Assembly: GCA_945860295.1 (NCBI GenBank)
Contig: CAMAQH010000010.1
Coordinates: 62,001-126,000 of the forward strand
Length of the DNA stretch: 64,000 nucleotides
Direction: 5' to 3'
From: Prosthecobacter debontii
Lineage (GTDB): Bacteria; Verrucomicrobiota; Verrucomicrobiia; Verrucomicrobiales; Verrucomicrobiaceae
Shown here: piece after piece, positions 30,014 to 49,620 of the stretch
Layout of the letters: each line of letters starts with the position of its first letter
Numbering within the stretch: the first letter of the stretch is position 1
Made by a program: the position numbers and the translations under genes
The notes under the pieces: model-generated
The model's database searches: none
Told to the model about the DNA's origin: nothing
The model's input: the letters and a program-made list of their open reading frames with translations, nothing else

Positions 30014-30916
30014 TTAATGCATGCGCTTACCGACCTCTTCACATAGGCCGATGAAGGTACGCTCGGCGAGGTTGAGTGGACGGCCTTTGAGATAGCTGGT
30101 GATCCAGCGGCGTTTGAGGCGCGCTTTAGGCAGTGGGATTGCGACGAGCTGGCCGGCCTCGATCTCGGCACGCGCGATCCAGCGTGCTGTGATGGCCACA
30201 CCGAGTCCGAGTTTGGCGAGTTCTTTGATAGCCTCGCTACTGCCTAGTTCGATGAAGTGCTGGAGACGAACGCCCTGCTTCAAGAAGAACTCCTGAATCA
30301 TGGTGAAATTCTGACTGCTACGACTGGAAACGATGAAGGTCTCTGCGCCTGCCTCGCGTGTTTTGGGCGGTGACTTGACCCAGGGATGCAGCGGTGAGAC
30401 GAGAAACTCCAACTCATCCTCAAAGATGGAGTGGCACTCCAAGCGAGTGACTTCAGGCGGTCGTAATGTGACGCCGAGATCGACTTCGTTATTGAGTACT
30501 CTTTCGATGATGTGCGGCGTCTCACCGGGCACGACACGGATCTCATACTGCGGAAAGCTTTCTTTAAACTCGCGGAAAACGCTGGGCAAAATAAACTGTG
30601 AAGCAGCGGGTGTGCAGCCGATGGTGAGCTTGCCGCGCGGAGTCCGATCTAAGGCACCGAGTGAGGCGCGCGCTAGGCTCATTTCTTTGAGAATCATCTC
30701 CGCATGAGGCAGCAGTTCACGTCCGTGATGAGTGAGGTGAACACTCTTGCCCTGACGATGAAAAAGCTGGCAGGCGAGATCCGTCTCTAACGCCTTGATG
30801 CCATGACTGATGGCCGACTGCGTGAGATGCAACTCGCGCCCAGCCTGCGTAAAACTGCCCGTGCGTGCCAAAGAGATGAAGGCGCGAAGCTGGCGAGTAT
30901 CGAGGGGTTGATCCAT
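30014..30916 (-). CDS. LysR family transcriptional regulator
   Basis: The product is 300 residues from the ATG at 30916 (MDQPLDTRQL). In-frame codons upstream belong to the inverted-repeat element and should not be counted. The N-terminal helix-turn-helix is LRAFISLARTGSFTQAGREL, then QSAISHGIKALE. The substrate-binding domain follows with LTIGCTPAASQFILPSVFRE and GSSEAIKELAKLGLGVAI. Such regulators respond to a small co-inducer and often control a divergent gene. Here the gene behind the promoter is the M20 peptidase on the same strand, whose end is only about 80 bases away, so the regulated target is not evident. It converges with the efflux channel gene. Confidence 0.92.
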   Translation of the reverse strand: MDQPLDTRQLRAFISLARTGSFTQAGRELHLTQSAISHGIKALETDLACQLFHRQGKSVHLTHHGRELLPHAEMILKEMSLARASLGALDRTPRGKLTIGCTPAASQFILPSVFREFKESFPQYEIRVVPGETPHIIERVLNNEVDLGVTLRPPEVTRLECHSIFEDELEFLVSPLHPWVKSPPKTREAGAETFIVSSRSSQNFTMIQEFFLKQGVRLQHFIELGSSEAIKELAKLGLGVAITARWIARAEIEAGQLVAIPLPKARLKRRWITSYLKGRPLNLAERTFIGLCEEVGKRMH

Positions 30917-30923
30917 AGGCGTA

Positions 30924-31021
30924 GAGGTTTGCAGTGGTTGGCGGTTGTTTGCAATGGTTTGAAGTGTTTTCAAAAAGCCACTGCAAACCATGGCCAACTA
31001 TTGCCAACCACAGCAAACTTC
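30924..31021. repeat. 10-nt-periodic inverted repeat element, copy A
   Basis: The left arm 30927-30966 is four consecutive 10-mers (GTTTGCAGTG, GTTGGCGGTT, GTTTGCAATG, GTTTGAAGTG). After a 12-base loop, the right arm 30979-31018 is the reverse complement of four more. Counting flanks, the 43-base arms match at about 34 positions. It lies between the lysR start and the M20 peptidase and supplies the last codons of that peptidase (CCGWQ). A related element is at 49489-49620. Confidence 0.85.
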
Positions 31022-32206
31022 ATCAAGGGCCAGCAGATTCAGCACGCACTTGGGCACGAAGCTTTCGGGTTCGACGTATTCGGGGAGCTTGCAGCCATCT
31101 GCGCTGCGCTCTGAGCAGTGAGCATTGCCGCCGACTGGGCCAAGAGCATCGAGAGTGGGACCGAGCTGGCAGAGGTAATTCGCATCGCTCAGGCCACCGC
31201 GTTTCATGGAAATAGTGTGGATGCCGAGCACCTCAGCATGTCTGGCCCAGATTTCAAAGAGCGCCTGAGTACCCACGCCACTAGGCCAGGCTTGGGTTTG
31301 GCCCACACATTCAATGTGGAGAGTGGCTCCTGCTTCAGTGATGCCGCCGTGACTCTCAAGCGCAGTCCCTGCGTCGCTCAACGCAACGGGATCAAAAGCA
31401 CGTATTTCCAGATCAGACACTGCTTCATGCGGCACACGATTGAGAACGGTGCCGCCGTGGATGCTAGCGACGTTCACGGTTAATTCGCGAGCTGCATCCG
31501 TGAGTGCCGCGATCTGCGGTAGCACGAGTGCTAGTTCGACGACGGCATTGATGCCAAGCCCATGATTGCTACCTGCATGGGCAGCGCGGCCCGTGCAGGT
31601 GATTCGGTATTCAGCGCGACCTTTGCGTGAGGTGACTAGATGCCAGTCACTGCCATCACGCGGTCCGCCTTCAAAGACGAGCACAGCGCGTGCTGTGCCA
31701 CTGCAAAGATCACGAGTACGCTCGGCAAAGTCGGAGCCGATGACCTCCTCGGCCGAGTTTGCTGCGATGAGCCAATGGGTGCTCTCGAAGAGTGTTGGAT
31801 TCACTTCCTGCAAGACACGCAGCATGAGCCAAATAAGCGCTGTGCCGCCTTTATTATCGACCGAACCGGGGCCGTAAATGCGCTCGCCTTCGAACTGCCA
31901 TTTGAAGTCGTTGCGCATCTCTTCTTCCGGCGGAAAAACAGTATCGAGATGGGTGACGAGAACGATGGGTTGGCTACCTGTTGGACCACGGCTTAGAAAG
32001 AGATGGTGGCCATACTTAGGAACAGATGAGGCCATGAATTGAGCCTTGAAACCGAGCGGTTCAAAGCACTCGGCTGTAAGCCGACCGAGCGCATTCACGC
32101 CAGCGACATTCGTGGTGAAGCTATTGATCTCAACCATGCGCCGAAGCCAGTCGAGAGCTTCCAGCAGGTGCTTTTGAGCGCTGTGTGTGAGCTTAGCGGA
32201 GTCCAT
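30998..32206 (-). CDS. M20 family zinc peptidase (glutamate carboxypeptidase/ArgE-like)
   Basis: The product is 402 residues from the ATG at 32206 (MDSAKLTHSA); longer in-frame starts are unlikely. The M20 metal motifs are LVTHLDTVFP (His and Asp), GPGSVDNKGG (bridging Asp), AANSAEEVIGS (catalytic Glu-Glu), VLVFEGG and a C-terminal GGNAHCSE (His). Residues around RAAHAGSNHGLGINAVVELA form the dimerisation lid domain. The closest described relatives are CPG2-type carboxypeptidases that release C-terminal glutamate, but specificity cannot be read. No signal peptide, so probably cytoplasmic. Its C-terminus runs into the inverted repeat, suggesting that the element altered the end of the gene. 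Confidence 0.88.
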   Translation of the reverse strand: MDSAKLTHSAQKHLLEALDWLRRMVEINSFTTNVAGVNALGRLTAECFEPLGFKAQFMASSVPKYGHHLFLSRGPTGSQPIVLVTHLDTVFPPEEEMRNDFKWQFEGERIYGPGSVDNKGGTALIWLMLRVLQEVNPTLFESTHWLIAANSAEEVIGSDFAERTRDLCSGTARAVLVFEGGPRDGSDWHLVTSRKGRAEYRITCTGRAAHAGSNHGLGINAVVELALVLPQIAALTDAARELTVNVASIHGGTVLNRVPHEAVSDLEIRAFDPVALSDAGTALESHGGITEAGATLHIECVGQTQAWPSGVGTQALFEIWARHAEVLGIHTISMKRGGLSDANYLCQLGPTLDALGPVGGNAHCSERSADGCKLPEYVEPESFVPKCVLNLLALDEVCCGWQ

Positions 32207-32272
32207 GAAAATGAGCTTAGCTTCGATGATACGAAAGGGTATTCCTATTTGCACAAGAGAAGGCCTGCCACT

Positions 32273-32543
32273 AAGAGAAGGCATGGCGCAGGGCTTCACC
32301 GCAGTGCGTTTTCTTTATCCAGTCCAGAGTCATGCATGATGACACTGGCAGCCATTCGTAGATGCAGGGAAGGCCGTGAAAATCGGCCACAGTCGCGCTG
32401 CGGTAACGGGTCACAATTTCACAACGCGCCGGTCAGTGATGATCAGCGGGCAAAGTCAATCTGAGGGCAACCAAGGGTGAAGGCGAGTGAGAAAGGCGCT
32501 GTGGGCAACCACACAGAAACCCGGAGTCCGAATATCTCTCTCC
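32273..32543 (+). promoter_or_regulatory. Cobalamin riboswitch (candidate)
   Basis: The core at 32366-32410 reads AGGGAA, a GGCC-GTGAAAAT-CGGCC stem-loop, then CACAGTCGCGCTGCGGTAACGG. This closely resembles the conserved B12-box region of cobalamin riboswitches (AGGGAA .. GGTGAAAATCC .. GCTGACGCGCAGCGGTAA). About 100-130 bases downstream is the matching 3 prime element, AACCCGGAGTCCGAATATCTC (about 32518-32538), resembling AGTCCGGATACCTGCC. The 5 prime part has a CCAGT..ACTGG hairpin (32320-32346). Outer boundaries are approximate. The orientation matches the gene at 32685. The family binds adenosyl- or methylcobalamin and usually lowers expression of B12 uptake or synthesis genes. A covariance-model search would settle it. 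Confidence 0.8.
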
Positions 32544-49488: not shown

Positions 49489-49620
49489 GTTTACGATTGT
49501 TTACAGTGGTTGACGATTGTTGACGGTTGTTTGATGGAAACCAATCTCGATAGCACCTTCTGAGAAATCGACTGTAAACAACCGTCAACGCTCGCGCAGC
49601 GAGCCTAAACAACGGTAAAC
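49489..49620. repeat. 10-nt-periodic inverted repeat element, copy B
   Basis: The left arm 49489-49538 is five consecutive 10-mers starting GTTTAC/GTTGAC/GTTTGA. The right arm, read on the minus strand from 49620, has GTTTACCGTT, a GTTTAG unit broken by a 15-base GC hairpin (GCTCGC-GCA-GCGAGC, 49590-49604), then GTTGACGGTT and GTTTACAGTC. The 10-base phase and consensus (GTTKRCnnTK) match the element at 30924-31021. It occupies the space upstream of moaC, downstream of DUF5069. Confidence 0.85.

Follow-up and report, generated by a model that had tools for sequence, protein, structure and literature searches.

Gene-less hairpins with four-plus-four ten-nucleotide units in a Prosthecobacter-like genome belong to a repeat family associated with an IVP (PF05635) gene

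Introduction

The protein family PF05635 comprises the S23p or IVP protein of 23S rRNA intervening sequences (IVS). It is described in a passage of PMC10053308 as resembling the DGR accessory protein Avd. In the passages of PMC4990558 that deal with the IVS of the Coxiella 23S rRNA gene, tandem heptamers (three GACAGAT units and one GACAGAA) are placed before the S23p ORF, a stem of 28 bp is described, the IVS is called selfish, and it is said to be excised by RNase III, while the Discussion of the same paper states that the origin and purpose of rRNA IVS and S23p are unclear (PMC4990558). These two questions have been a puzzle for decades. An S23p ORF is present in some rRNA IVS only.

In RAYT/REPIN systems, one chromosomal gene with a fixed place is accompanied by many short hairpins elsewhere. 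Long hairpins at gene borders are also formed by NEMIS/Correia, ERIC and the Rickettsia palindromic elements, of which NEMIS are cut by RNase III and the Rickettsia elements are inserted in frame into genes; to our knowledge, none of these has a linked four-helix-bundle gene or arms made of tandem units. According to parts of PMC3733652, the GTAG/CGTC-tagged REPs are high-copy extragenic palindromes with stems of 6–13 bp and a terminal tag, which occur also in Opitutus terrae, a Verrucomicrobium. In the open-access full texts of PubMed Central, a scope that leaves aside subscription papers and preprints, no earlier description of dispersed hairpins with IVP genes was found.

Here, we describe copy A, an inverted repeat of four plus four ten-nucleotide units in a Prosthecobacter-like genome, and the family to which it belongs. 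Positions refer to the window, that is, the whole stretch of 64,000 nucleotides that was analysed.

Results

The original prediction read each arm of copy A as four consecutive 10-mers, and this reading was borne out: both arms consist of four units in perfect 10-base register, six of the eight units match GTTKRCNNTK exactly and the other two (GTTTGAAGTG and GTTGGCAATA) are one mismatch off. The arms, 43 nt each (30924–30966 and 30979–31021), show 81% complementarity and are spaced by 12 nt. Folding predicted a stable RNA hairpin (−53.9 kcal/mol, z −6.06), the stability of which was equalled by none of 200 shuffled sequences, and the z values were −7.57 for the RNA of the other strand and −5.92 for the single-stranded DNA. 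A hairpin of 40 pairs had been proposed for the transcript; the folding predicts this hairpin as well, and the transcript itself stands as a prediction. The repeat was also correctly said to supply the last codons of the M20 peptidase gene, the stop codon of which lies within the right arm (Table 1), and to abut the start of the lysR gene. The predicted M20 product ends with VCCGWQ, while in six relatives other final residues stand directly after NLLA or NVLA. Matches of the lysR and M20 genes (30014–32299) lie on separate contigs in relatives, thus the position of copy A may be that of a rearrangement or, with lower probability, of a junction made in the assembly. Both copy A and the second element of the window, copy B, are located between protein genes and not within a 23S or 16S rRNA gene.

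An intrinsic terminator was rejected as the identity of copy A, since a T-tract is absent at the hairpin as judged by eye. A comparison of the 30500–31500 region with Rfam returned three microRNA models only, all far below the gathering score. The sequence GTAG, corresponding to the GTAG/CGTC REP tag, is found at 30921–30924 beside copy A, but by eye it does not recur beside the other copies inspected. As originally stated, copy A carried no REP or IS signs in the tests made here; CRISPR was set aside, together with integron attC sites and telomere-like repeats, on the basis of these repeats as they are known to us.

Table 1. Positions of the features described in the window
Feature	Position	Strand	Basis or remark
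Copy A, whole gene-less hairpin element with G-type units (GTTKGC)	30924..31021	.	Repeat, fold and unit reading
Copy A left arm, four 10-nt units	30927..30966	+	Unit register
Copy A loop	30967..30978	.	TTTTCAAA, weakly resembling by eye the surroundings of the IVP-gene stop codon (reverse complement TTTGAAAA)
Copy A right arm, four 10-nt units	30979..31018	−	Carries the last M20 residues and the stop codon (31000–30998)
M20 peptidase gene, 3′-end running into copy A	30998..32299	−	
lysR-family regulator	30014..30916	−	Start codon (30916) 7 nt outside copy A
Copy B, second element with A-type units (GTTKAC)	49489..49620	.	Between the DUF5069 gene and moaC
Small palindrome within copy B right arm	49590..49604	.	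GCTCGCGCAGCGAGC, by eye

The two-unit pattern with at most two mismatches gave 11 matches in the window, where 1.34 were expected. The genome-wide search for tandem GTTKRCNNTK units suggested in the original prediction was carried out with the three-unit pattern and at most one mismatch, and it yielded 29 + 30 matches in the source genome vs. 2 + 0 for the reversed control. These 59 matches were grouped into about 26 loci, which establishes a real repeat family with many further copies, and no match to a known transposable-element end emerged, PF01797 being the transposase family searched. By subtype, 13 loci are A, 11 are G, like copy A, and 3 are tied. Among the 56 genomes searched, arrays were present in 28 of the 35 belonging to the genus, with up to 206 matches in one genome, vs. 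1 of the 21 from other genera, where the lone positive genome had a single match. The occurrence of the arrays is patchy and limited to the genus. Judged by MoaC, the source genome has its closest named relatives among Prosthecobacter-like Verrucomicrobiaceae.

Copy B is a real element of this family as well, although a small GC-rich palindrome divides its right arm. Small palindromes of this kind (GCTCGCGCAGCGAGC and GGGCGCTGCGCGCC) break units also at L032, L040, L042, L044, and L047; they look as if inserted into the arms, and similar ones were seen by eye in other copies of the source genome. A terminator was rejected as the identity of copy B because the upstream gene has its own terminator-like palindrome, which precedes the element. 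Copy B has no counterpart near moaC in the other genomes compared, with no three-unit array detected at 80 loci. Hairpins of other tandem-unit motifs are present in the moaC region of some other Verrucomicrobia (L093, L099, L125, L131, and L108) and absent in others (L100, L089, L109, and L117). A hairpin of the AATGAGAC family lies in frame within a coding sequence of G006 (L231, about 619–766) and is absent from G058 (L225, 732–771). No target-site duplication was readable at the polymorphic sites. In L046 (2320–2530), the loop of a GTTKRC copy contains a second hairpin with units of about 11 nt (ATTAGCGTCT-like), that is, a nested family. Long tandem arrays of at least 10 units of one type (GTTGGCGGTG or GTTGGCGATG), with the partner arm out of view, were seen at L055 and G012:C62:2274-2429; L055 and L061 were excluded from the hairpin sets on account of their long identical tandem arrays.

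The expected position of the copies at gene ends was confirmed. In 19 of the 24 gene-less hairpins with two good arms each (site 2 counted once, two mixed hairpins omitted), a start codon lies no more than 40 nt from one end, and an ORF that runs towards the element stops near the opposite end; the fraction placed so by chance had a mean of 0.16 and a maximum of 0.33 in 200 random trials. Taken separately, the stop side (30 of 47 ends vs. 0.20 by chance) is more telling than the start side (25 of 47 ends vs. 0.35 by chance). Position K4 of the unit covaries in register between the two arms (0.742 vs. 0.556; 0 of 2,000), which favours the folded form, and N8 pairs less than by chance (24 of 2,000 as low). 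Within an element, the arms are no more complementary (22.57 of 30) than are arms that share the R-type (22.94 of 30). Perfect arm pairing was rejected as a conserved trait, since the identity in register is no higher than among arms with a common R-type and K4 alone covaries.

The only PF05635 gene of the source genome (C1:97962-98264) is flanked by unit arrays and is located on a contig other than that of the window. Its product, the IVP, matches PF05635 and TIGR02436 (four helix bundle protein), and its sole PDB match is 2gsc (XCC0516). Neither window copy contains the PF05635 ORF, which is present in the copy of this family at the home locus. An arm of GTTKRC units on either side was found at 11 of the 30 best PF05635 loci of the genus, and at none of 30 PF13366 or the 30 best PF01797 loci (one of the latter from the source genome, which has four PF01797 genes). 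Inverted flanks with a score of at least 34 occur at 22 of the 30 PF05635 loci and both arms are periodic at 17 of the 30, vs. 0 of 79 moaC loci in both respects. At the PF13366 loci, such flanks were detected in 23 of 29 cases, of which 1 of 29 passed the periodicity threshold, and at the PF01797 loci in 24 of 29 cases, 0 of 29 being periodic (owing to flanks that were too short, one row was left out of each of these two sets and of the moaC set). Across the phylum, inverted flanks reaching this score accompany 12 of 30 PF05635 loci, many of them with 7- or 8-nt units.

Y1 transposase (PF01797) and GxxExxY (PF13366) were rejected as partners of the GTTKRC units, as arrays were found at 0 of 30 loci in both cases; the PF13366 flanks are inverted but have other motifs. 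The single PF13366 gene of the source genome has no clear arms by eye. The PF13366/GxxExxY (PDDEXK_3) loci (L190–L219) display inverted flanks of short degenerate units with many motifs, and they possibly represent a second gene with the same plan. At L250–L279, Y1-transposase (RAYT-like) genes lie between REP-like inverted repeats that are unlike the unit arrays.

Y1 transposases were found in 39 of 39 genomes. A model of the 17 IVP proteins with GTTKRC arms detected this IVP type in 19 of 39, with one full-length gene each; G006 has a fragment of 51 positions. Hairpins occur in all 17 IVP-positive genomes (median 51 matches), including G017 and G033 with a variant-arm IVP, vs. 11 of 18 IVP-less genomes (median 9). 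One IVP-less genome, G002, has 99 array matches. All seven hairpin-free genomes are without IVP (Fisher two-sided p = 0.0076, one-sided Mann–Whitney p = 0.0022, 35 genomes).

Arms and proteins were read together at 69 PF05635 loci (L322 being cut by the contig end), and 7-, 8-, and 10-nt units were found to recur with quite different letters. The other IVP clades have their own units, overall of 7–11 nt. In the tree of the 69 proteins, which has few columns and long branches, all 17 proteins with GTTKRC arms fall into one clade of 19 rows (support 100/99), and the two remaining rows have a variant unit. The GTTKRC label requires two changes on this tree, where shuffled labels need 15.3 (none of 500 shuffles being as low). 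Similarity of arms correlated with that of proteins (Spearman 0.347, 0 of 999 permutations) with a looser flank filter, which let through pairs sharing the near flank only; under the stricter filter, the correlation was 0.267 (0 of 999 permutations) for 875 pairs without any flank similarity. Shared arms were detected in 7 of 27 pairs with a protein similarity of at least 0.5 vs. 0 of 848 pairs below this value. All seven belong to the GTTCTC family, the only one for which there is support that the arms moved together with the gene to unrelated sites. The R5 subtype was rejected as a simple key linking the resident IVP to the hairpins, because the source genome and G005 are mismatched: the arms of the source IVP are A-type, yet its loci are mixed in the proportions given above, and G005 has a G-type IVP, yet 26 of its 37 loci are A-type.

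All 19 GTTKRC-type IVP genes adjoin the same TIM-barrel (PF01261) gene. At this home site, the TIM-barrel gene and glgE were joined in 18 of 30 loci, the 12 others being unused because these neighbours were not joined. The 18 loci comprise arms with the IVP gene in 9 genomes, 6 gene-less hairpins with a loop beginning with the 3′-end of the IVP gene, 2 decayed remains, and 1 locus without any unit. The six loops indicate that gene-less hairpins do arise by gene loss. G025 and G014 are sisters by their flanks (88.7% on both sides); the element of G025 is 85.4% like that of G057, and its four best matches (down to 68.3%) do not include that of G014. On the flank tree, four changes are needed for the A-type-plus-IVP state, and shuffles need no more than that. 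The element type changes independently of the host phylogeny.

The second gene-pair site carries an element in all 18 joined loci (12 of 30 were unused, as the neighbour genes were not joined there), namely a gene-less hairpin of the GTTKRC type in 10 loci and of the GATNCTR type in 1, a GATNCTR element carrying an IVP in 6, and a decayed element in 1. On the host tree, the motif changes six times, at least five of which are forced by supported branches, that is, as often as with shuffled labels, and the sisters G001 and G011 differ in their element. As this site is never empty while its motif varies, elements appear to displace one another in place.

Discussion

Copy A probably derives from a small element of the IVS type and lacks the gene of the latter; its arms would be the cognate sequence of the IVP, and the organisation of the family would be RAYT/REPIN-like. 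The full element has the order arm, gene, and inverted arm, usually with four tandem units per arm. The repeat family, the order of arms and gene, the association of protein and arm, gene loss at orthologous sites, exchange at fixed sites, and the placement between stop and start are observed; that the element is mobile is inferred. In the proposed mechanism, the IVP would recognise the arm units, either as DNA or as folded RNA, and such binding of the arms appears fairly likely. Beyond this, the IVP might promote the spread of sequence enclosed by the arms, or its substitution for other elements, at stop–start gaps; that it drives the spread is a tentative suggestion, against which we lean slightly. 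The stem in the mRNA could be cut by RNase III, as others showed for rRNA IVS, by which the insert would do little harm, and we consider the arguments for and against this cleavage to be evenly balanced. Several observations weigh against this reading. The subtype of the hairpins often departs from that of the resident IVP, no target-site duplication was readable, the arms within an element are not more complementary than others with their R-type, and N8 pairs less than by chance. The GTTKRC-type gene itself is fixed at one locus in 19 of 19 cases, and hairpins are present in 11 of 18 IVP-less genomes, so these hairpins should be relics or another agent is needed. We know of no recombinase activity and no catalytic motif for the four-helix-bundle fold of the IVP. 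According to PMC4990558, S23p seems not to be made in Coxiella, which likewise counts against this reading.

The hairpins could instead be repeats of the MITE or REP kind that an unrelated transposase moves, with the IVP gene as a chance passenger caught between two copies. That hairpins outlast the IVP in 11 of 18 genomes, that the IVP has no catalytic motif known to us and that Y1 transposases occur in 39 of 39 genomes would fit such a scheme, but the GTTKRC-type IVP gene adjoins one and the same gene in 19 of 19 genomes, and a passenger would not be expected to have arms with units of their own in other clades. Moreover, the arms accompany 11 of the 30 best PF05635 and none of the 30 best PF01797 loci, and the inverted flanks of the PF01797 loci (24 of 29 with a score of at least 34) are different and non-periodic (0 of 29), thus we regard this explanation as unlikely. 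A host signal for regulation or processing between co-directional genes, such as an RNase III site or an attenuator, which is selected and copied by recombination, seems still more improbable. The strong predicted RNA fold, the covariation of K4 in register and the stop–start placement of 19 of 24 hairpins agree with it, while the patchy, genus-limited occurrence, the finding of no array at moaC in other genomes, the turnover between sister species and the lack, by eye, of the U-tract typical of an intrinsic terminator do not.

The original prediction had also suggested that a protein could bind the same face of the DNA repeatedly, one unit per helical turn; this would be a nucleoid or regulatory protein. 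The perfect 10-nt register with mostly four units per arm fits this idea, which was weakened by the related elements of the genus and phylum with 7- or 8-nt and some with about 11-nt units; the 10-nt period then belongs to one element clade. The units are, in all cases seen, tied to IVP loci and not to promoters, and we consider this explanation very improbable. A further alternative concerns the turnover at fixed sites only, which may reflect short-tract homologous recombination between species and not the activity of the element. The site and its flanking genes are common to several species at 80–93% identity, and natural transfer can carry short tracts; on the other hand, flank trees group sister species up to the very edge of the element while the element differs, and the exchanged arm motifs are unrelated and without homology. 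Recombination as the source of the turnover seems doubtful, though a good deal less improbable than the other alternatives.

The full element encodes a protein of the family that is known from selfish inserts of bacterial rRNA genes, and this suggests that such inserts are members of a far wider class. In the broadest and rather speculative form of this idea, IVP and S23p would be the specificity factors of a wide homing-like class of hairpins with clade-specific units of 7–11 nt, which are copied with or without the gene into stop–start gaps, rival families displacing one another between sister species, and the rRNA IVS would represent those few members which came to lie in rRNA genes. If each S23p-type protein has its own arm motif, the old question of origin and purpose becomes testable by comparing the binding of matched and unmatched arms. 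A single scheme would then account for many tandem-unit hairpins that lie unexplained at the gene borders of Verrucomicrobia, and perhaps of other groups, and would add a second, non-HUH case in which numerous hairpins depend on one single-copy gene.

Among the known systems, the GTAG/CGTC REPs differ from the present family by their short stems, since the stem here is about 40 bp, and by their tag, as no conserved tag was seen by eye in the flanks. The RAYT/REPIN systems share with it the plan of a single-copy gene and many dispersed repeats, with the IVP in the place of the RAYT. However, the gene here encodes an IVP and not a Y1 (HUH) transposase, the arms are 40 nt long and built of tandem units, and the real RAYT-like loci of the genus have other repeats (0 of 30 PF01797 loci with GTTKRC arrays). 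Unlike the rRNA IVS, the elements described here are located between protein genes, have 10-nt units and occur more often without the gene than with it, and their arm motif is clade-specific across many motifs. Nevertheless, the full element resembles the rRNA IVS with an S23p/IVP ORF of Leptospira and Coxiella in having terminal inverted repeats around a four-helix-bundle ORF, and complementary ends that form a long stem are predicted also for copy A.
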